A stretch of 32,566 nucleotides of DNA from a virus, in IMG/VR virus record IMGVR_UViG_3300031772_000169, positions 1 to 32,566 of that record. One strand, given 5' to 3'. Of the stretch, positions 15,997-30,037 are shown in pieces (position 1 is the stretch's first letter; each line of letters starts with the position of its first letter). The position numbers and the translations under genes are program-made. The notes under the pieces are model-generated. The model did no database searches. It was given only the letters and a program-made list of their open reading frames with translations, and was not told the DNA's origin.

Positions 15997-16593
15997 TTAT
16001 ATTTCATCGAATAATTTTGGCTGACGCAATTTCCCTTTTTCACCTATCACTTTTCCCTGCAAAAGCCTGAGATCAACAACTGCCCCATATTCAATGAACA
16101 CATCACGGAATCTATCAATATCCTTGTTCCAATAGATCATGGCGCATGACATTGGTGCACCCTTACCTTCGTCCTTCCCCTCAACGAGAAAACGGAGTCT
16201 CGTATCGTACAGAAAGCATACAGCGCTTGCCCGTCCCCACACATATTCCTTCCAATGGCTGGTGTTGGTTGCAACAGGCACTAAAGCAAGAACTTGCGAT
16301 CCATAATTCTTGTGGGCATGGGCACACTTATAAAGCCAATGTTTTATTGTCGTTCTATTCTCTTTGTCAGAGCCATAAGGTGGATTCACATAGATCGTAG
16401 GATAATTCCATGATTCCTTGAGTCCATTTTTTTCTGGTAGGCGGTATTCTGTCTTAGCATGGACAACAGACCACTCATTCGAGCATGGGTCAAGAAATAT
16501 TTTACCGCCAAAGACTCTTCTGACTGCGTTCACATACTTAGGAGGCGTACACCAGTTGACACTCTGCGAATTAACTGTCCTTCCCGCCGTCAT
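15997..16593 (-). CDS. Dam-type phage DNA N6-adenine methyltransferase
   Basis: 198 residues with the phage Dam family layout: 'WCTPPKYV' at 14-21, 'FLDPCSNEWS' at 33-42, catalytic 'NPPYG' at 70-74 (the DPPY-type motif IV), and a following 'LVPVATNTSHW' strand. It transfers a methyl group from S-adenosylmethionine to adenine in DNA. Its ATG overlaps the stop of the putative restriction enzyme gene (ATGA), so the two form an operon. It probably protects DNA against its partner. Confidence 0.88.
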   Translation of the reverse strand: MTAGRTVNSQSVNWCTPPKYVNAVRRVFGGKIFLDPCSNEWSVVHAKTEYRLPEKNGLKESWNYPTIYVNPPYGSDKENRTTIKHWLYKCAHAHKNYGSQVLALVPVATNTSHWKEYVWGRASAVCFLYDTRLRFLVEGKDEGKGAPMSCAMIYWNKDIDRFRDVFIEYGAVVDLRLLQGKVIGEKGKLRQPKLFDEI

Positions 16594-17732
16594 GAGTGTA
16601 TCTCCTGCCAGTTCTTTCCTTTCAAAGTGTCAAGTTCTTCCTTAAGAACAGCAAGCTGTTTCCCTGCTGGGGCGATGATGTTGAACCATCCTTCGATCAC
16701 CTTCATGTGCGACTTGAAATAGGACTGGAGAGCGGCATCAGCGGCAAGGGCAATCTGAACCTTTGTGAACTGATTGACTCCCTTCTCGCCTGTGTAGCTC
16801 GCCAGAAATGCCTCTTTCGCTGCCGTCAGTTCCCTTGCTGGATGGAACAACAACTCGTCAATAAACTGTGCAATTCCCGCATCGGTCAGAAAAAGAAGCC
16901 AGTCATAGGATTGAGCGAGAACCTTCAGTTCCTTGTTGTGATTTTCGGACGTGAACCAATTGCCGTGATTACTGACAACTCCTACCGTTAGAATAAAACG
17001 CGACAGAAGTTCCGAATCATCAGATGCGATAATTTCAGCCATCAGCTTGTAGTAGTCGTCAAGTCGGAACGATCCGTCACGCTTCTGAATCAGGCCGCCC
17101 ATACTGCCATTGGTCAACCTTATCTTCTGTAACGCGGACACTGTCCGAGCAACATAGGCTCCTTGCTTCGCCTTTTCGATTGTCTGTGGACCTTTCCGCA
17201 TTCCTTCTTCGACCCCCACCCGCTTGCACTCAAAAATCGCGAATGGGCGACATCGAAGAATCACAACAGAATACTGTCCTTTGTCCTTTTCGAGTTGGTC
17301 GAGATACGCATTTATGAAGGTTGCGCCAAGATCGCAGACGGTGCATGAGTTCCGAAGAATCAAGTCCTTGCTCAACAAAGCGTGCGACTTCATCGAACCA
17401 GCGGAGATTTCAATCTCGGCAAACTGTTGATTTTTGGAAATCTTCCTTGCTGTGATGGGAAGTTCATCTCGGCCAAACTCCGCTGTCATCAGATGGGTTG
17501 AGGGATGAAGACTGTACTCAACATTGTGGGTAATATCATCTTTACCGAACTCAGGTAGCGGTTTCTCTATCGCAATATTTTTTTCAAACCCCCATGATTT
17601 GAGGGCGTAGAACGTGATAATCTCGACAAGGGTGCCGAGCGCACGCCCCGCAGCTTTCTTGGAGTCTTTGGCGTAGTGGAACACCTTCTCGGTGAGAACC
17701 TTCTGGAGTTGGTCAACTGATGGGTATGACAT
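16590..17732 (-). CDS. Putative type II restriction endonuclease
   Basis: 380 residues from ATG at 17732 after ACGGAGA. The N-terminus 'KDSKKAAGRALGTLVEIITF' is helical with Glu36, and 'RPFAIFECKRVG' at 162-173 is a beta strand ending in E-x-K (Glu168, Lys170), the core of a PD-(D/E)XK nuclease; a preceding Asp at about 145-150 could complete it. Coupling to a DNA methyltransferase strongly suggests a restriction-modification pair. The cut site is unknown, though a Dam-type partner hints at an adenine-containing target. Confidence 0.75.
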   Translation of the reverse strand: MSYPSVDQLQKVLTEKVFHYAKDSKKAAGRALGTLVEIITFYALKSWGFEKNIAIEKPLPEFGKDDITHNVEYSLHPSTHLMTAEFGRDELPITARKISKNQQFAEIEISAGSMKSHALLSKDLILRNSCTVCDLGATFINAYLDQLEKDKGQYSVVILRCRPFAIFECKRVGVEEGMRKGPQTIEKAKQGAYVARTVSALQKIRLTNGSMGGLIQKRDGSFRLDDYYKLMAEIIASDDSELLSRFILTVGVVSNHGNWFTSENHNKELKVLAQSYDWLLFLTDAGIAQFIDELLFHPARELTAAKEAFLASYTGEKGVNQFTKVQIALAADAALQSYFKSHMKVIEGWFNIIAPAGKQLAVLKEELDTLKGKNWQEIHS

Positions 17733-17771
17733 TCTCCGTTTTCCCTTTCTGGTCTTCATATTCTTTATTTC

Positions 17772-19209: not shown

Positions 19210-20115
19210 TTAACTCAGGTCAAGGCTTCTCTTATACTGTCCGGTTACTTCGCTCACGTCATTCAGGTTCATGGCTTGCTTGGCTATCTCATGGGCAACA
19301 TTCCCAAGCTCCCGTCTCAAGGTCTCATTGTCTCTTAAGTCTTTGGCAATTTCCTTCGAGTCGTGGCCGTTCATGTGTTTCCTAAGTTCGGCCAGCTTTT
19401 CGTCTATGCTATGGTCCCCGATAAAGTTCAACTCCTGGAAGTGCTCTATGGTTTCCTTTACGCTCTTGATGGTGTTGGCAGTGACTACCTCCCCATTGAT
19501 AATCCGCGTTGATAATTTCTCACAGCTTTCGGCTACGGTGGCTCGCATGTCAATAACTACGTCTTCCAAGAATAAATCAAACTTCTCTTGAAGTTCTCTT
19601 TTAAAGCGCTCATAAGCTTCAATTACTTCCTGGCTTGTAGTCTCGTTCATTTTGGTATCTGTGATCTCGAAGATTGCCCAAGTAAAACTAAACTTCCTCT
19701 CAATGACATTGCGGGCCGGGTAGTATGGTTCCAGCTTGTCGGCGTAAAGCGGGTAGTTCTGAAGCATTTCCCTTTTTATTTGTTCATAGCGGTCCAGGAA
19801 ACTTAAGACGGTGCTTTGAAATAATGCCTTGTACTGCTCCAAGTGGGCCGCGGTATCAACGAGCCTGTCTCGGGGAACAAAGCGGGCGCCACCTACCGGG
19901 AAAGGGAAACTCCAGCGGTCTAGGAAGTTCCTCGCATTGTTTTCAACCTGCGTGAAGCTATTCCTTTCATTCTCGGGGATAAGTAATTTCTTTCCGAGTC
20001 TCATAAAGTCCGGTATGTCCTCGGGGCTCAATCCCAAATCAGAGGGCTCCAGCTTCTTGGCTCCGCTCCATTTTGACACATTGAGTGTCAGCAAAACTCC
20101 ATCCTTAAAATTCAT
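19210..20115 (-). CDS. DUF3150-like protein
   Basis: 301 residues. It starts 'LLTLNVSKWSGAKKLEPSDLGL', then 'GKKLLIPEN', 'NNARNFLDRWSFPFPVGGAR' and 'FVPRDRLVDTAAHLEQYKAL', the layout of DUF3150. The rest is a long helical, charged region. DUF3150 genes are typically found in phages and mobile elements near AAA+ ATPases, and here one lies about 1.1 kb upstream in the same operon. The partnership is inference. AGGAGGTAAAAGAATT supplies the ribosome binding site. Confidence 0.82.
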   Translation of the reverse strand: MNFKDGVLLTLNVSKWSGAKKLEPSDLGLSPEDIPDFMRLGKKLLIPENERNSFTQVENNARNFLDRWSFPFPVGGARFVPRDRLVDTAAHLEQYKALFQSTVLSFLDRYEQIKREMLQNYPLYADKLEPYYPARNVIERKFSFTWAIFEITDTKMNETTSQEVIEAYERFKRELQEKFDLFLEDVVIDMRATVAESCEKLSTRIINGEVVTANTIKSVKETIEHFQELNFIGDHSIDEKLAELRKHMNGHDSKEIAKDLRDNETLRRELGNVAHEIAKQAMNLNDVSEVTGQYKRSLDLS

Positions 20116-20122
20116 AATTCTT

Positions 20123-20302
20123 TTACCTCCTTTCGTTTTTGATGTTGTGTAGCCTATTCATAACGGCGATAGCTCCAATTTTGTAAACCGTTATGCAAAT
20201 TAATTCTTCTTTTTCATATAGGGCATAGAATCTTGAATCATGAGGTTTGATTATAAAATTCCCCAAAAATTCAGTTTTTCGCATCCGCCTTTCTCCAACC
20301 AT
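20123..20302 (-). CDS. Hypothetical protein, 59 aa
   Basis: ATG at 20302 follows AAGGGGGGAAA. The product 'MVGERRMRKTEFLGNFIIKP' continues with 'HDSRFYALYEKEELICITVY' and a basic helix at the end. The final codons (AGG AGG TAA) double as the ribosome binding site of the DUF3150 gene, indicating coupling. Family unknown. Confidence 0.6.
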   Translation of the reverse strand: MVGERRMRKTEFLGNFIIKPHDSRFYALYEKEELICITVYKIGAIAVMNRLHNIKNERR

Positions 20303-20311
20303 TTTCCCCCC

Positions 20312-20491
20312 TTATCCGCACCACTGATTCCCAGCGGTACAGTCAATAGGCTTGTCTTTGCTTCTCCATCCTGGGCAGTCCTCGCACAATGCGCAAAGTA
20401 AATCCCCCGTTTCTTCATCCCACCAGTCAGAGATTAAATGACCAGTCGGGCCAATAGAAATAATGATGGGGTGAGGGTCAGCGGCCTCCAT
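20312..20491 (-). CDS. Cys-rich small protein, 59 aa
   Basis: ATG at 20491 lies 14 nt inside the DUF2997 gene. The product has 'GHLISDWWDEETGDLLCALC' then 'EDCPGWRSKDKPIDCTAGN', ending WCG; five cysteines (CxxCxxC plus two) suggest a bound metal, perhaps zinc or iron-sulfur. It sits next to DUF2997/DUF1257, which in cyanobacterial genomes are neighbours of ferredoxin-type genes. That link is only suggestive. Confidence 0.6.
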   Translation of the reverse strand: MEAADPHPIIISIGPTGHLISDWWDEETGDLLCALCEDCPGWRSKDKPIDCTAGNQWCG

Positions 20492-20678
20492 TGGTGTTTA
20501 CCCTTACCCTTTCCTCCAGGGCTTCCACATAATATTCCCCGGTTCTTTTGATCTCGGTGGTATTGCCGAGGGCCTCTTCAATGAATTTGGAAACATCCAG
20601 GCATCCTTTGCCCTTTACTCCCTTAGTCTCTACCGTCACGTTTCCGGCTTGGTCGATGTTTAAGATGATCTTTTCCAA
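20478..20678 (-). CDS. DUF2997 protein
   Basis: 66 residues: 'MEKIILNIDQAGNVTVETKG' followed by 'KGKGCLDVSKFIEEALGNTT' and 'EYYVEAL'. This is the DUF2997 signature (I.v..dG.v..e..G..G..C...t..le.alG.v......Y). In cyanobacteria and many mobile elements DUF2997 lies beside DUF1257, as here. Function unknown. It starts 1 nt after the DUF1257 stop. Confidence 0.88.
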   Translation of the reverse strand: MEKIILNIDQAGNVTVETKGVKGKGCLDVSKFIEEALGNTTEIKRTGEYYVEALEERVRVNTNGGR

Positions 20679-20679
20679 G

Positions 20680-21069
20680 TTATTCTCCTCCCCTACTCAT
20701 GGTTAGTTGGATGTTGCGTCCATCCTCCGTTACTTTCTCGTACACGCTAAAGCCTTTCCGGCGGGCCTGGATCTTGGCTTGCTCTACAGCATAGGCTTGT
20801 TTGAGAAGTCCTGCATTCTGCCCTAATTTTGAAACTAAGCCTCCGCTTGACCAGGAATCCCATTGAAGGGAGAATTCCCCCTCGCTCTCCAAGAGTCCCA
20901 CTTCAAATTTAGCACCAGGGATACTGATGGCATGGGAGCACTTGTTTTCCCCATAGTAGGCGCGGAAGGTCTTTTGTCCTTCCATGAATTTACAACCCAA
21001 GCGCTCGCACGCTGCCTTGAGTGCTTGAAGGCTTTTGATCTTCAATTCTATTTGTGACACGTGGCTCAT
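20680..21069 (-). CDS. DUF1257 (Ycf35-like) protein
   Basis: 129 residues beginning 'MSHVSQIELKIKSLQALKAA', then 'SHAISIPGAKFEVGLLESEG', 'FSLQWDSW' and 'LKQAYAVEQAKIQARRKGF', matching DUF1257, the family of the chloroplast gene ycf35. Function is unproven; it keeps company with DUF2997 and Ycf46-type ATPases. The ATG overlaps the stop of the zinc-ribbon gene (ATGA). Confidence 0.88.
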   Translation of the reverse strand: MSHVSQIELKIKSLQALKAACERLGCKFMEGQKTFRAYYGENKCSHAISIPGAKFEVGLLESEGEFSLQWDSWSSGGLVSKLGQNAGLLKQAYAVEQAKIQARRKGFSVYEKVTEDGRNIQLTMSRGGE

Positions 21070-21236
21070 ATCTTTTTTTTCCTTTCTTTTAGGAATTTTT
21101 CAAAGGCTACCGCGTTGGTAAAAAGCGATCTTGCGCAACGAGGGCAAAAGAACTTTACCTCTTCTGCATCGGTTCTAAAGGAAAAGGCAATATTGGATCT
21201 TGTGATTTTTTCTTGACAGTATGGGCATGACGGCAT
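21066..21236 (-). CDS. Zinc-ribbon protein, 56 aa
   Basis: ATG at 21236 is 1 nt after the ATPase stop and follows GGAGGAGAATAAACTAA. The product has CPYC at 4-7 and CPRC at 31-34, a typical zinc ribbon, and a Lys-rich end. Tight coupling with the ATPase before and DUF1257 after suggests it belongs to that module, perhaps as a substrate or nucleic-acid adaptor. Confidence 0.7.
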   Translation of the reverse strand: MPSCPYCQEKITRSNIAFSFRTDAEEVKFFCPRCARSLFTNAVAFEKFLKERKKKI

Positions 21237-21237
21237 T

Positions 21238-22656
21238 TTAGTTTATTCTCCTCCTTCCGCTTAGATTTACTGTCTCTTGATCAAGACTCGCGGGGATGGT
21301 TCTTTGTTTTGCCCATTGCCTCAAGGCTCCAATTTTATCCGCCATGCTTTGGGATAAGGGCATAACATAGGCTTCTGCTTCCTTGATGGTGGTTTGCATC
21401 ATGGCTGCGATACGGCATAGGCTCTTTATCTCCGCTCCGCTCCATCCTTCGGTGGTAGTGGGTTCCCCTTCAACATGATATTGATGTTGATAAAGGTCTA
21501 AGATGATTTTCCGCTCGCGGCTTGTAGGCAAGTCAACAAAGAAAATAGCATCCCATCGCTCAGCGCGTAGGAATTCGGGGGGTATTTTGGTAATGTCATT
21601 GCAGGTAGCAATAACAAACACTCGGCTTTTATGATCGTTTAGCCAGGTCAAGAAAGTCCCAAATACTCGGCTTCCGGTTCCTCCGTCTGTCTGTCCGCTC
21701 GATTGAATACCGCTTAAACCTTTTTCTATCTCGTCGATAAAGAGAATGCAGGGGCTAAAGGCGTCGATTATCTTGAGTGCTTCGCGGATTCTACTTTCGC
21801 TCTCTCCCACCAGGCTTCCAAACATACGGCCAAAGTCGAGACCCGCGGTGGGGATGCCCAGGGCTTTTCCTAATCCCTTGGCAAAATGGCTCTTGCCAGT
21901 TCCTGGAGTCCCAAGCAATAACACTCCTTTGGCTAAAGGGCTGCGGGCTATCTTAAGGCAAAATTGCTTGAGGTTGTCTAATCCTCCCAAGTTCTCTAAG
22001 GTCTCGTCGTAGTTCTCAAGCATAAGGCTCGCGTTCTTCCTGATAAGCTGTGTTTTCTGCTCGACGATTACGGCGGGGTCAAACTTCTTCTTAGTTACTA
22101 GAGATAGGGCCAGCGCGTTTTCAAACTCGAATGAGGTCAAACCTTTCGCGGCTTCTAAGATAAGGTCGGTCTCTTCTTCGGTGGGCATGGGCATCTTGGC
22201 GGAGTCTGCCATATACATGAGAGTTTTTTTCAAGGTCTCTTTATCCGGTAGATCGAAGTTTAAGACGGTGAAAACTTTTTCAAGCTCGGTGGGGATTTCG
22301 ACGATGGGCGCTAATACAATGATCGTTTTTCCGTTTGCCTTGTAAAGATCCACAAGGTTTAAAACTTCTTGAATATTTTCTATTACTTTGATGTATCTAT
22401 GGAAATTGTGAAGGAAAAGAATCGCCCTTCCTTCCCCTGTTGCTCCGGTGGCTAAAAAGCCAATGGCTTTCAGCGGATCCGGTTCTTCCTTCTTAAAGGG
22501 GCCTTTTACCGCTCTAAATCCTTGCTGGCAATCCCACTGAAAAGGCTTGTAGCCTGCTTGGGCTGCTTCCTCTCCCCACTCGCTCACAGTCCTTTGAGAC
22601 TCGCTCGTTTGTACCCATAGGGCGGGGAAGCCCGCTCTTAAGTGTTCTATAAACAT
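21238..22656 (-). CDS. Ycf46-type AAA+ ATPase
   Basis: 472 residues from ATG at 22656, after AGGAGGAAGTAAAGATT. Residues 1-140 are a degenerate N-terminal ATPase-like domain ('AILFLHNFHRYI', 'TIIVLAPIVEIPTELEK'), typical of chloroplast/cyanobacterial Ycf46. The active domain has Walker A GTPGTGKS (249-256), Walker B ILFIDE (304-309), sensor Asn353 and 'LRAERWDAIFFVDLP' with arginine-finger candidates at 364-367. Cellular Ycf46 function is poorly known; AAA+ rings remodel proteins or complexes. Downstream come a zinc ribbon, DUF1257 and DUF2997. Confidence 0.9.
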   Translation of the reverse strand: MFIEHLRAGFPALWVQTSESQRTVSEWGEEAAQAGYKPFQWDCQQGFRAVKGPFKKEEPDPLKAIGFLATGATGEGRAILFLHNFHRYIKVIENIQEVLNLVDLYKANGKTIIVLAPIVEIPTELEKVFTVLNFDLPDKETLKKTLMYMADSAKMPMPTEEETDLILEAAKGLTSFEFENALALSLVTKKKFDPAVIVEQKTQLIRKNASLMLENYDETLENLGGLDNLKQFCLKIARSPLAKGVLLLGTPGTGKSHFAKGLGKALGIPTAGLDFGRMFGSLVGESESRIREALKIIDAFSPCILFIDEIEKGLSGIQSSGQTDGGTGSRVFGTFLTWLNDHKSRVFVIATCNDITKIPPEFLRAERWDAIFFVDLPTSRERKIILDLYQHQYHVEGEPTTTEGWSGAEIKSLCRIAAMMQTTIKEAEAYVMPLSQSMADKIGALRQWAKQRTIPASLDQETVNLSGRRRIN

Positions 22657-23755: not shown

Positions 23756-24229
23756 TTAGACTAACCTTGGCTGGCCATTGGCCTGAGTTGGCTTTATTAG
23801 ACCAGCTTCAGTAAAGGAAGAATACTTCCCGTCAATCCCAAGGATGATATGATCCAATAATCTTATGCCCAGAAGGGCCAAAGCATTTTCAATTACTGAG
23901 GTTAAGTTCTTGTCATCCAACGAGGGTCCCGGATCTCCGCTTGGATGGTTATGGACGAGCACCACGCTCGCGGCGCCAGCTAAAAGAGTATGCTTCGCTA
24001 TCTCGCGGGGATAGATGATGGATCGGTCAATACTGCCTGGCTGGATGGTAATCCCTAATAGATGGTTTCTCTGGTCCAGGTAGATGACTATCATTTTCTC
24101 TATGTCTGAATTCTGAAGTTCGTGGGCGAAGGCGACCACCGTTTCAGGGGAATTCAGGGTGCGGTGTGCGTCATAAGGGAAGTCAGGCTCTTTAATTCTT
24201 CTGCTCTCTAACCGATACGCAAAGCTCAT
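23756..24229 (-). CDS. RadC-family JAB/MPN domain protein
   Basis: 157 residues. 'VVLVHNHPSGDPGPSLDD' holds the JAMM metal motif: His93, His95, Ser97 and Asp106, with an upstream 'ERE'-like Glu provided by 'YPREIAKH'. The C-terminus 'LLGIRLLDHIILG' is the usual RadC strand. Only the JAB domain is present; the N-terminal HhH domain of cellular RadC is missing, as in most phage and plasmid copies. Biochemical function is unsettled. It starts by a TAATG overlap. Confidence 0.9.
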   Translation of the reverse strand: MSFAYRLESRRIKEPDFPYDAHRTLNSPETVVAFAHELQNSDIEKMIVIYLDQRNHLLGITIQPGSIDRSIIYPREIAKHTLLAGAASVVLVHNHPSGDPGPSLDDKNLTSVIENALALLGIRLLDHIILGIDGKYSSFTEAGLIKPTQANGQPRLV

Positions 24230-25118: not shown

Positions 25119-25382
25119 ATTTAGTTCTTTCTTTATGAACCTTTCTTTCTTGTCAGCTCGAAAAGGCTCAAGTCTAAATCGGCGAAACGAAAACGTCTGA
25201 TAATAGTTAAACTGTAAACTTCAGATGTAAACTTTAGAGTGGCCGGCGAAACGAGAAGCCTTACAATCGATATCGGATACCGAATGGCTGTCACCCACGC
25301 ACTTTGCCTCCAAAGGATGACAAGGCCAGCTTTCCAAAGTCCCGTCCTGGACGATTCTACGAGCCTGGCTTTTGACAGCTCC

Positions 25383-25525
25383 AGGTCTAGGCCCAGGTCC
25401 GGGCCCAGGTCCAGGTCCAAACCAAGCTTTATGTCCATAGCCTGCAGGTCTAGGCCCAGGTCTAGGCCCAGGTCCGGGCCCAGGTCCAGGTCCAAACCAA
25501 GCTTTATGTCCATAGCCTGCAGGTC
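25383..25525. repeat. GC-rich 75-bp tandem repeat built of 12-mers
   Basis: The block ending GTCCATAGCCTGC recurs with a 75-nt period (25383-25444 and 25445-25519), the second copy having one extra AGGTCTAGGCCC unit. Within it, AGGTC(T/C)(A/G)GGCCC 12-mers repeat. Because both periods are multiples of three, frames on both strands remain open (Gly/Leu/Asp-rich one way, Arg/Ser/Pro-rich the other), but no start signal supports a gene. Possible protein-binding or packaging site, or replication-slippage product. Confidence 0.75.
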
Positions 25526-26130
25526 TCACTCCCGGCTCGATGAGGGCTTGGCCCTGAATCCCGCGTCCTTTGGCGTGTTAGTTTTACAACATTCAACCCT
25601 TTTCCTCTATTAGATTTGCCTTCATGCCCATCCAACCCACAAAAATAGGGCAGGGTAGGGGCATGAGTCATCAAGGCCCGGGGAAGAGGGAGAGGGCCAA
25701 TGGTTCTACTCCCTCTCAAGCACATGAACACCCCTTTTTATAATTTTTCCTCTCAATTCTGCAAATAATCATTTTTGATTATCTATCGACCCCGTTTTTC
25801 CCCCAGGTAACGATTTCCGTTACTATTTGCAACTCCCAGTTTAAAAATATCTCCATTCCTCGACTTCCGGTACTGTTTTTCTCTTATTTATAAAATTTTC
25901 CCCTTCACTTATTAAGATTTGCAGGTATTTTGTCGCAAGTTCTGTCGCAAGTCTGTTTTTCCCCCTAATCATCACCTAAATTCTCCGGTTTCCGCTTAAT
26001 CCTTGCCGTCAAGGTGACACTATCGACCTCTTCCGCGTCTCTTTTTACGTCCGGAAGGTTAAAGTCTCGCCTAAATCGATCTGGCTGATTCACGATCGAT
26101 GTATTTTTAAAATTTTCCTCAAAATAATTC
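25526..26130. other. Gene-free control region with inverted and direct repeats
   Basis: No convincing gene. Visible structure: ATAATCA-TTTT-TGATTAT (25765-25782), GTAACG-ATTTC-CGTTAC (25807-25823), and TGTCGCAAGT twice with a 12-nt period (25931, 25943). GTAAACTTCAGATG occurs at 25214-25227 and again at 26194-26207, inside the start of the small membrane gene. These are plausible operators for the late operon or binding sites for packaging or replication proteins. Confidence 0.5.
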
Positions 26131-26920: not shown

Positions 26921-27572
26921 AAAACTTATGCGTCCCCTGATCCCGGAAGTTATTGCCGATGAGGGCAAATCGACGGCTTTGGTTCAAGTGGGGCGGTCAG
27001 CCGCAGTATTAGCAGCCGCCGCCCTGATCAAAAAAGGGAAGCCCTGGGATTTCTTGGAGCAAGAGAAAGCCTTCGAATTTTATTTTAATCTTGGAGAAAA
27101 ACGAACTCTCGATCAAGTTGCAAAAAAGTTAAAAGTTCCCATCGCCTCAGTTGAGAATTGGAAGGAAGAATACCATTGGGACGCCAATCTTAGAGTTAAA
27201 ACTTTTATGGGGGAAATGCGGCCAAGCCTTCAAGAGGCAAAAGAAGCAAACGATTTATTACTTCATAGAATGACCATGCCGGAGTTGGAAGAGATAAAAA
27301 TAGAAAGTGGGAGATTGAAACCGGGTCGAAGATTAATTGACTCTGAAAATCGCTTGCCCATTCCGCCCAAACGGGTATTAAACCCCGTTTACGCAGGATC
27401 AAAAGCCCTATCTGATATTATTGGGAATTATAAAGATCTAAAGACTCTGGCCTACGATGAACGCGACAAAGAAATAGCCATAGCAGAGTCGTTAAGGGGC
27501 AAAGTTGAAGATGAGTCTGGCAAGGGTCCAAAGAATATAGTTCAAGTCAACGTCCAAGTCATAAAATCATGA
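26898..27572 (+). CDS. terS: Terminase small subunit
   Basis: 224 residues. A helix-turn-helix lies at about 73-100: 'RTLDQVAKKLKVPIASVENW' followed by 'KEEYHWDANL', the Trp-rich pattern of phage terminase small subunits, which recognise the packaging site and regulate the large subunit. The C-terminal third is charged and ends 'NIVQVNVQVIKS', a strand seen at the C-terminus of many small terminases. It overlaps the next gene by 4 nt (ATGA). AGGAG lies 11 nt upstream of the ATG. Confidence 0.8.
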   Translation: MRAPAEPKKLMRPLIPEVIADEGKSTALVQVGRSAAVLAAAALIKKGKPWDFLEQEKAFEFYFNLGEKRTLDQVAKKLKVPIASVENWKEEYHWDANLRVKTFMGEMRPSLQEAKEANDLLLHRMTMPELEEIKIESGRLKPGRRLIDSENRLPIPPKRVLNPVYAGSKALSDIIGNYKDLKTLAYDERDKEIAIAESLRGKVEDESGKGPKNIVQVNVQVIKS

Positions 27573-30037
27573 GTGGGTCTCAATATATATACAACATAGT
27601 GTTTGATTACCGAAACGCGCCCACACTTGAGCGTTTCAGCAATAGCGATAAGCGCATCCGGGCGGTCGTCGGTCCATTCCGAAGCGGAAAATCAAGTGCC
27701 TGTTGTTTTGAACTTTATACAAGGGCTACGCAGCAAAACCCTGATTCCAAAGGAGTCCGGCGCACACGTTGGGCAGTGGTGAGGAACACCTACCCCGAAC
27801 TCAAAGACACAACCATCAAAACCTTTCTCGATTGGTTCCCTCCAGAATACTTCGGGCATTTCCGTTTAAACCCGAATCCAGAATACCAAATGAACTTCCC
27901 GCTGCCCGACGGTACTACTCTGCAAGCGGAATTCCTGTTTCGGGCACTCGATAAACCCGAGCACGTCAAGAATCTTCTGTCTCTGGAGGTAACGGGCGCC
28001 TGGTTCAACGAGGCCCGGGAGATCCCCAAAATCATCATCGACACAATGGATGGTCGTATCAATCAATATCCGGCCATGAAGGACGGTGGGGCTACCTGGG
28101 GTGGGATGATCTTAGACACGAACCCCTGCGATACGGACCATTGGTTTTATAAACTTTTCTGCGAAGATCTTCCGAATAATCTCGCCCTTCAAGACCATTA
28201 CGAATATTTTCATCAACCTTCCGGTCGATCACCGCGGGCTGAGAATCTTTCCCATTTACCCAAAAATTACTACCAGGATTTTATGGTTGGGAAAGACGCC
28301 GACTTTATCAGCGTCTATGTGGATGGGCAGTACGGATTCGTCCGAGAGGGCAAGGTCATCTATACGAATTACTTGGATTCCGCTCACTGTGCCACAGAAA
28401 TTCTTAAGGGCAGGGCAGGACTTCCACTTATTACCGGCTGGGACTTCGGTTTGTGCTATTCGGCAGATACCGAAGTTTTAACGATTGATGGATGGAAATT
28501 TTTTAAAGATGTGGATGAGAAAAGAGATCTTGTCGCTACTCGCAATCCCGAATCAGGAATGATGGAATATACCAAGATCAATTTTAAGATCGAGAGGGAT
28601 TACGAAGGCGAACTTTTGGAATGGTCAAACCAAAATGTAAATTTTTGTGTAACCCCAGAACACCGAGTACCATTTACCTTCCGGGATACTCCAAATAGGG
28701 TTGTTTTCGGGTCTGCGGAATGGTTAGCGCAAAATCCTGGTGGACATCATTATGTCGATTTAGTTTCCAGCTGGAATGTGCTTCCTACCAGCAAGAAATA
28801 TTTGGCCGGCATGTGTGCAAAAGATTATGCCAGATTCATGGGCATTTATTTGGCTGAAGGTTCTTCGGATACCTGGAGAACAACCATTTATCAAAAATAT
28901 CGAGAATCCGATATCGAGGAGATTTTGGTAAAAACGGATCTTCCGTGGAAGTGGAATTCAGACAAGAAAACGAGTGGATGGAGACTCAATAAAACATCCA
29001 TTGCTAAAGAACTAAAAAAACTTGGTACAGCAAAAAGCAAAAGAATTCCACGGGAAATTAAAGATATGCCATCGGATTGTATCTTGGCCTTTATTCTGAC
29101 CTACACAATGGGTGACGGAAATATTAGGGTTAGAGAAAACGGGGCTTTTGAACACACCATATTTACTGTCTCCCCAAATATGGCGGATGACTTTCAAGAA
29201 TTGGCTCAAAAGATTGGATGGTACGCCAGTATCCGCAAGGTGAAACCGCAGGAAAGTACGATCATAGAAGATGGTCTTCCCAGGAAGATAAAGAACAACG
29301 GTGGATTTTCTATCACATTCAAAAAGGGAGCCAAAAGAGCGGAATTATTTTCCAGAGATTTTCTGCGCGTGCCATATTCTGGAAAGATTTATTGTCTCAA
29401 TGTTCCCTATCACACCCTTTATATTCGCCGAAACGGGATTGCTTCCTGGAATGGTAATACCCCGGCTTGCGTGATTATGCAGTACGAACCCAAGGGGCGC
29501 CTGAATGTTCTCCATGAACTCTGCGCATCCGAAATGGGGATCCGGTCTCTGGCCACGAACGTGGTCAAGCCTTTTATCCTGGCGACCTACCCGGGATTCC
29601 AAATCATCTCCGGATGTGACCCGGCGGGTACTCATCGCTCCGAGATCGACGAGAATCTTACCGCGATCATCGAACTTAAGAACTGCGGATTCAGCGTGAA
29701 ACCGGCCTGGACGAATGCTCTGGAAGCGAGATTCAGCACGATCGATAACTTCCTCACCCGAAGGATAGAGGGTGATAAGCCGGCCTTCCAACTTTCTCCG
29801 GAGTGCAAGGTTCTCAGAAAGGGATTCAACGGGGAATACAAAAGGCGTCGGCTCCAGGTAGCCGGAGCAGAGATCTATTCCGACGCCCCGGAAAAGAATA
29901 TGGTCTCCCATCCTCACGAGGCCCTTCAGTATGCGGCCATGATCATCGAACGCGGGATGAGAAGTTACGAAAAGACCGGCTGGAATACCCAAGGCGCCGT
30001 CAAGACAAATCCCCCTTCAAAGTTGGCGTGGGCATAA
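27569..30037 (+). CDS. terL: Terminase large subunit interrupted by an intein
   Basis: 822 residues as encoded. ATPase: Walker A 'GPFRSGKS' at 35-42; 'VTGAWFNEAREI' at about 143-154 is the Walker B region with catalytic Glu. The nuclease domain begins 'LITGWDFGL', its first Asp being metal-binding, then is interrupted by an intein (residues 296-630) and resumes 'TPACVIMQYEPKGRLNVLHE'. After splicing the protein would be 487 residues, normal for a phage packaging motor. It cuts and translocates DNA into the prohead through the portal encoded downstream. Confidence 0.93.
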   Translation: MSGSQYIYNIVFDYRNAPTLERFSNSDKRIRAVVGPFRSGKSSACCFELYTRATQQNPDSKGVRRTRWAVVRNTYPELKDTTIKTFLDWFPPEYFGHFRLNPNPEYQMNFPLPDGTTLQAEFLFRALDKPEHVKNLLSLEVTGAWFNEAREIPKIIIDTMDGRINQYPAMKDGGATWGGMILDTNPCDTDHWFYKLFCEDLPNNLALQDHYEYFHQPSGRSPRAENLSHLPKNYYQDFMVGKDADFISVYVDGQYGFVREGKVIYTNYLDSAHCATEILKGRAGLPLITGWDFGLCYSADTEVLTIDGWKFFKDVDEKRDLVATRNPESGMMEYTKINFKIERDYEGELLEWSNQNVNFCVTPEHRVPFTFRDTPNRVVFGSAEWLAQNPGGHHYVDLVSSWNVLPTSKKYLAGMCAKDYARFMGIYLAEGSSDTWRTTIYQKYRESDIEEILVKTDLPWKWNSDKKTSGWRLNKTSIAKELKKLGTAKSKRIPREIKDMPSDCILAFILTYTMGDGNIRVRENGAFEHTIFTVSPNMADDFQELAQKIGWYASIRKVKPQESTIIEDGLPRKIKNNGGFSITFKKGAKRAELFSRDFLRVPYSGKIYCLNVPYHTLYIRRNGIASWNGNTPACVIMQYEPKGRLNVLHELCASEMGIRSLATNVVKPFILATYPGFQIISGCDPAGTHRSEIDENLTAIIELKNCGFSVKPAWTNALEARFSTIDNFLTRRIEGDKPAFQLSPECKVLRKGFNGEYKRRRLQVAGAEIYSDAPEKNMVSHPHEALQYAAMIIERGMRSYEKTGWNTQGAVKTNPPSKLAWA
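28454..29458 (+). mobile_element. Intein with LAGLIDADG-type endonuclease in terL
   Basis: 335 residues. Block A 'CYSADTEVLTIDGW' starts with Cys1; block B 'FCVTPEHRV' has the Thr-x-x-His; blocks C and E are 'FMGIYLAEGS' and 'LTYTMGDGNI', degenerate LAGLIDADG motifs ending in Glu-Gly and Gly-Asp-Gly; block F/G is 'KIYCLNVPYHTLYIRRNG' and the end is Trp-Asn-Gly-Asn followed by Thr+1. The penultimate residue is Gly rather than His. It splices itself out; the endonuclease spreads the element into empty terL alleles. Confidence 0.92.

Follow-up and report, generated by a model that had tools for sequence, protein, structure and literature searches.

A phage-borne gene cassette with a Ycf46-like AAA+ ATPase, DUF1257, DUF2997 and DUF3150, and its recurrence in phages, plasmids and bacteria

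The window examined in this study is the whole IMG/VR virus record IMGVR_UViG_3300031772_000169 (32,566 nucleotides), from a virus of sediment bacteria. Viral markers on this contig include RecT, a YqaJ nuclease, a CI/S24 repressor, an integrase and an intein-bearing terminase. We analysed a cassette of seven minus-strand genes running from position 22656 down to 19210 in the order AAA+ ATPase, zinc ribbon, DUF1257, DUF2997, two genes encoding 59 amino acids (aa) each (s59a and s59b) and DUF3150; coordinates, order and strand were all as the initial annotation had described them. The genes are closely packed. One base separates the ATPase gene from the zinc ribbon gene, and likewise DUF1257 from DUF2997; the zinc ribbon and DUF1257 genes overlap by 4 bases and DUF2997 and s59a by 14, and s59a, s59b and DUF3150 are spaced by 9 and 7 bases. 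A purine-rich stretch resembling a ribosome-binding site was found at most of the genes.

The ATPase gene (21238..22656, minus strand) encodes 472 aa and matched the Pfam model AAA PF00004 at 91.3 bits (cut-off 21.2). Its C-terminal half contains a P-loop (GTPGTGKS, residue 249), a Walker B motif (ILFIDE, 304), the sensor-1 residue N353 and the arginine fingers R364 and R367. The P-loop, the sensor-1 asparagine and one arginine finger were conserved in all 38 aligned relatives, the other arginine finger in 36, and the Walker B D/E pair also in 36, the two remaining rows being gapped. Judged by these motifs, the C-terminal half is predicted to be catalytically competent, as had been proposed. 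The P-loop was absent from the N-terminal half of all 38 relatives. Comparison of the two half-profiles gave a collinear alignment of 150 columns (E 2.2e-5, probability 52%) in which ILFLHNFH stands opposite ILFIDEIE. Because the two profiles are collinear and ILFLHNFH occupies the Walker B position, the proposal of a degenerate ATPase-like N-terminal half holds with moderate strength. These results support a tandem AAA protein with a putatively dead first domain, in a Ycf46-like layout. Given the conserved inter-subunit arginines, the protein would be expected to act as a hexameric ring. The best-matching models were of the CDC48/FtsH type, and similarity to DnaC loaders was weaker. In some related loci, the AAA genes probably carry intein-like or other insertions or are split over two frames (L058 5728-8451, L050-L054 5965-7953, L041 5995-8321 and L068 3406-6648); that of L058 contains MDPYILGLLIGDGSFGN.

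We then compared the ATPase with the full-length AAA proteins of cyanobacteria, which we take to be Ycf46 (slr0374 in Synechocystis). A profile of the window family scored up to 584 bits on the cyanobacterial proteins, over positions 2-482, and about 180 bits on ordinary AAA proteins, in the C-terminal half only. In a tree that contained no plastid sequence, a split supported at 99/98 placed the window protein with members from Nitrospirota, Planctomycetota and viruses, apart from the cyanobacterial proteins. The ATPase had been likened to Ycf46. The full-length homology, including the degenerate N-terminal half, bears this out, but the protein falls outside the cyanobacterial clade; on the sequence evidence it is Ycf46-like, a member of a well-supported sister lineage of cyanobacterial Ycf46 and not its ortholog.

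The DUF1257, DUF2997 and DUF3150 assignments all exceeded their Pfam cut-offs. The DUF1257 gene (20680..21069, minus strand; 129 aa) encodes the proposed adaptor subunit and matched PF06868 at 27.3 bits (cut-off 22.2). This score passes the cut-off for the Ycf35 family, to which the protein had been assigned, but does not reach the level of a Ycf35 ortholog, since the cyanobacterial Ycf35 proteins score about 140-158 bits with the same model. By these scores the protein is a remote member of the family and not Ycf35 proper. In the relatives, Pfam DUF1257 was over the cut-off in L015, L045, L062 and L002, below it in L028 (17.9) and L050 (20.1), and without a match in L047. The AlphaFold2 model had a mean predicted local distance difference test (pLDDT) score of 89, and a single entry of a viral structure library, A0A7S5REL3, matched it at E <= 0.001. 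Weak, scattered fold matches to Bcs1-type AAA and START-like folds (E >= 0.35, TM < 0.4) were not used. A DUF1257 gene also lies within a contractile-tail-like cluster on a Treponema succinifaciens plasmid (L081 6001-6408).

The DUF2997 gene (20478..20678, minus strand; 66 aa) matched PF11211 at 53.3 bits (cut-off 24.1), and the columns G12, G23 and C26 are invariant in the family. Two Bacillota metagenome-assembled genomes, of Thermincola and Syntrophomonas, encode DUF1257 and DUF2997 as a single natural fusion protein (example at L124:1438-2103), with scores of 46.6 and 43.1 bits, both over the Pfam cut-off. Suspected AAA-DUF1257 fusions in planctomycetes, in open frames of 650-714 aa, turned out to be spurious frames in GC-rich DNA. 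No credible relative with a solved structure turned up in sequence searches for DUF1257, DUF2997 or DUF3150.

The initial annotation had proposed that the cassette genes form one functional unit. We scanned viral contigs for the AAA protein, which gave 72 loci, added loci from phages, plasmids and bacterial contigs, and clustered the ATPases at 85% identity. Among the resulting 61 clusters, 36 had both DUF1257 and DUF2997 and 7 more had DUF1257 alone (43 with DUF1257 in total). DUF3150 was found in 32/61, and DUF1257, DUF2997, DUF3150 and the WCG-tail protein (the s59a family, in which a C-terminal WCG is constant) occurred together in 9/61. These counts come from profiles iterated on the same loci, and independent Pfam searches on representatives confirm many of them, not all; several clusters counted as partner-free hold very divergent candidates with weak matches.

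Surveys that started from DUF1257 were free of AAA-based locus selection. Across 149 planctomycete genomes, 24 DUF1257 matches were found in 20 genomes, and 22 of the 24 had an AAA match no more than 3 kb away, always on the same strand, with DUF1257 first in 11 and AAA first in 11. Every planctomycete genome with DUF1257 also had the AAA protein (Fisher p 3e-12, genome relatedness ignored), and DUF2997 stood beside DUF1257 in 18/18 loci inspected. Of 79 cyanobacterial genomes, 40 had DUF1257; 39 of these also had a full-length AAA protein and 1 an AAA fragment at a contig end. Adjacent AAA-DUF1257 pairs numbered 39, in 32/79 genomes, all on the same strand and with a median of 213 bases between match edges, and the presence of the two genes was correlated (Fisher p 9e-11, genome relatedness again ignored).

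Co-occurrence beyond this genome was therefore clear in phages, plasmids, Planctomycetota and Cyanobacteria, and the recurrent adjacency, together with the DUF1257::DUF2997 fusion, upholds the proposal of one functional unit. Chance clustering of unrelated phage early genes would be the simplest opposing account; small uncharacterised genes crowd such regions, and of the seven cassette genes two (zinc ribbon and s59b) are local. The independent gene orders and the distant phyla make this account untenable, and we give it almost no credence. For AAA, DUF1257, DUF2997, DUF3150 and s59a it is refuted by adjacency that recurs, in both gene orders, in distant phages, plasmids and phyla. The viral contigs L047, L049 and L058 have the order DUF2997-like, DUF1257, AAA; in L058 a vWA protein identified by Pfam follows AAA beside the AAA-DUF1257 pair, and a related gene follows AAA in L047 and L049. 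A large serine recombinase gene just upstream of the DUF1257 operon in three Pirellulaceae loci (L102, L104, L105) suggests a mobile element.

The small genes differed in their conservation. The zinc ribbon gene (21066..21236, minus strand; 56 aa, CxxC...CxxC) gave weak zinc-ribbon matches only, below every Pfam cut-off, and s59b (20123..20302, minus strand; 59 aa) belongs to no family and had no Pfam match. The zinc ribbon recurs in one other distinct contig only (L009). The s59b gene was found in 2 loci, both from the same phage, and in none of the other distinct contigs. Both are local genes and not conserved parts of the cassette. The zinc ribbon had been described as a coupled part, and it is present and overlaps DUF1257, but its recurrence does not extend further. 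Of the two 59-aa genes, the five-cysteine s59a (20312..20491, minus strand; below every Pfam cut-off) represents a conserved family, found in 22 loci and in 33 once bacterial contigs were added; the cysteines other than that of the WCG tail are missing in part of this family. Another small family, RASxVE (about 80 aa, no Pfam match), occurred in 34 of the loci searched, with DUF1257/DUF2997 modules, GenBank phages and a Manganitrophus plasmid among them (examples at L105:11297-11551, L104:9458-9712 and L002:8649-9026). In planctomycetes its gene comes after DUF3150 or DUF2997; the window has none.

The DUF3150 gene (19210..20115, minus strand) encodes 301 aa, mostly in long helices, and matched PF11348 at 79.8 bits (cut-off 24.9); in mobile elements its product is proposed to partner the ATPase. 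Its AlphaFold2 model had a mean pLDDT of 89, and tblastn of DUF3150 against GenBank phages gave no match. In the plasmid records L084 and L085 (pR997, presumably an SXT/R391-type element, and a P. putida plasmid), DUF3150 is accompanied by a different AAA ATPase and by vWA, after an ssb-bet/RecT-exonuclease set. DUF3150 thus switches between ATPases, as would be expected of an adaptor or regulator more than of an enzyme.

These two plasmid records also bear on a different explanation, in which the ring would load, displace or recycle replisome or annealing proteins of the phage or plasmid, and the iron-sulfur (Fe-S) link seen in cells would not hold for the phage form. The cassette is closely followed downstream by genes for a DnaB-like helicase and a DNA polymerase in Rhizobium phage RHph_I4, and by two genes annotated for DNA replication in Pseudomonas phage PA_L9; in the window, RecT and YqaJ are encoded on the cassette's strand. 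A replication client is the main rival because of the replication genes beside the cassette in these two phages. Against it, cyanobacteria carry this core on their chromosomes, many unrelated genes adjoin replication genes in phage early regions, and the ATPase resembles CDC48/FtsH-type proteins more closely than DnaC loaders. We consider it unlikely on balance, while giving it real weight.

The neighbours of the module in cells pointed elsewhere. A cyanobacterial locus (L122) has the order DUF2997-DUF1257-ferredoxin, with the ferredoxin confirmed. Radical-SAM genes of the Fer4_12 type lie beside the module in L082, L126, L118, L152 and L156. These loci come from a plasmid of Paenibacillus, one acidobacterium, a pair of planctomycetes and a myxobacterium, the last with the ATPase alone. 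GrpE and Hsp70 accompany the module in a Pseudanabaena plasmid (L083), and Hsp70 in a planctomycete (L161). In a Syntrophomonas element, ThiF and an anaerobic ribonucleotide reductase are near the DUF1257::DUF2997 fusion, and in some viral contigs a vWA gene is near the module. A duf2997-ycf35-fed7 cluster has been reported in cyanobacteria, where Fed7 binds a DnaJ-like protein and is protective under iron limitation and under oxidative and metal stress (PMC4284462). In red-algal plastids, the presence of ycf35 and of ycf46 each tracks marine versus freshwater habitat, and many freshwater species have lost both (PMC5940233). A paper citing Jiang et al. 2015 refers to that work for Ycf46 and CO2 use (PMC7496141).

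Some of these neighbours would fit a machine for the conjugation or removal of ubiquitin-like tags, with the ATPase as unfoldase of the proteins so marked. In three Pirellulaceae loci DUF3150 is followed by Prok-JAB and ThiF (E1-like) genes, ThiF accompanies the Syntrophomonas fusion, and a RadC-type JAB gene (23756..24229, minus strand; Pfam RadC 120.7 bits) is near the window cassette. This RadC-type gene is a recurrent neighbour, also near the cassette in L010, L080 and L086 and adjoining DUF3150 in L084, and its membership in the cassette is uncertain. We regard such a machine as highly improbable, given that JAB and ThiF are missing from nearly all other loci and that no ubiquitin-like protein was identified. 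The same JAB and ThiF genes could belong to a phage-borne conflict module (defence, superinfection exclusion or counter-defence), for which IetA/IteA-type AAA similarity in PADLOC and NCBIfam and a putative restriction-methylation pair about 1.5 kb downstream in the window may also be cited. The IetA similarity covers the generic AAA core only (52.7 bits; NCBIfam score 43, cut-off 510), no IetS partner was found among the window proteins scanned, the cassette has no effector domain, and many cyanobacteria keep the core as a stable pair of chromosomal genes. A conflict role is accordingly improbable, and defence as a purpose, which had been suggested, gained nothing from defence profiles that returned only generic AAA matches. 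Host takeover, likewise suggested, drew no support from this analysis, and for a replication purpose the replication genes next to the cassette in several phages provide no more than genomic context.

The explanation we prefer, though still tentatively, is a single AAA+ remodelling machine with a DUF1257-DUF2997 adaptor, which would serve a redox or metal-dependent client in cells and exist in a phage- and plasmid-adapted form. The AAA protein, with its degenerate and its active domain, would form the ring, and DUF1257 and DUF2997 would act jointly as the adaptor that presents the client or controls the ring. In cells, the core would work with Fe-S proteins (ferredoxin or a radical-SAM activase) and sometimes with Hsp70/GrpE. 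Its ancestral client was most likely a redox or metal-cofactor protein, which it would have folded, activated or repaired. Pointing this way are the genes for Fe-S proteins and Hsp70 next to the core, the published finding that Fed7 binds a DnaJ-like protein and acts under iron limitation and oxidative stress, and the losses of ycf35 and ycf46, which run in parallel and are linked to habitat. DUF3150 may be a further partner, found in mobile elements alongside the small RASxVE and WCG-tail proteins, and DUF3150 and RASxVE would there take the places of the Fe-S proteins and Hsp70. Phages and plasmids appear to have adapted the machine for a client needed during their replication; its timing in the phage cycle, like a role in phage replication or in metalloenzyme maintenance, is inferred from these associations.

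Several observations weigh against this explanation. Complex formation, ATPase activity and the client are all putative, and the models of DUF1257 and DUF3150 had no significant fold match in the PDB. AAA without a detected DUF1257 occurred in 12/79 cyanobacterial genomes, and a mycobacteriophage relative (L003) had no recognisable partner genes. The cyanobacterial ycf46-DUF1257 pair lies apart from the DUF2997-ycf35-ferredoxin operon, and the two loci contain different DUF1257 paralogs. The Fe-S partner is missing from nearly all viral loci, with a radical-SAM gene in range only in L040; the phage version may therefore serve a different client.

Many algal plastids and cyanobacteria retain ycf46 and ycf35, genes of unsettled function. 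The gene linkage described here says that Ycf46 and Ycf35 act as parts of one machine and names DUF2997 as its likely small subunit; the compact, fused and phage-borne versions offer material for purification and testing. With more hesitation, we suggest that AAA, DUF1257 and DUF2997 constitute an undescribed, widespread ATPase-adaptor machine that also explains the plastid Ycf46 and Ycf35, being a remodeller, linked to Fe-S proteins and Hsp70, that acts on a redox or radical enzyme, and that in its mobile form DUF3150 and RASxVE replace the Fe-S partner for a phage or plasmid client. The linkage is not described in the open-access papers located (subscription literature lay outside the search), in which ycf46 was not connected with ycf35 or DUF2997 as one machine and DUF3150 was not mentioned.

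Elsewhere in the window, the large terminase subunit gene (27569-30037, plus strand) contains an intein, with intein-family matches at about residues 418-562. The adjacent gene pair downstream of the cassette (15997-17759, minus strand) gave weak restriction-enzyme and orphan-methyltransferase matches. Low-complexity repeats at 25133-25613 produce GLDLDLGPDLG-type open frames on both strands and probably hold no gene.

Compared with known systems, the cassette shares with p97/Cdc48 and other tandem-AAA remodelers, which gave the best PDB sequence matches, the tandem AAA arrangement, the Walker motifs and the arginine fingers; it differs in having only one competent domain and no Cdc48 N-domain. 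The AAA-DUF3150-vWA set of pR997 and the P. putida plasmid is likewise carried by mobile elements and pairs DUF3150 with an adjacent AAA ATPase; RecT/Bet and an exonuclease are nearby, and in pR997 also RadC. In that set, however, the P. putida ATPase is annotated as MoxR-type, neither ATPase is matched by our AAA profile, vWA is present, and DUF1257 and DUF2997 are lacking. The window ATPase is not MoxR-type, and no cassette protein matches the vWA family, which separates the cassette from the MoxR/vWA activases. The Ycf35-DUF2997-Fed7 cluster of cyanobacteria (PMC4284462; L122) has the same DUF1257 and DUF2997 neighbours, whereas the window has no ferredoxin, a DUF1257 at 27 bits only, and the AAA gene within the same unit. 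Ycf46 of cyanobacteria and plastids, judged by the cyanobacterial proteins, resembles the window ATPase over its full length, degenerate N-terminal half included, and adjoins a DUF1257 gene in cyanobacteria; the window protein stands on the other side of the tree split, and its cassette also has DUF2997 and DUF3150.

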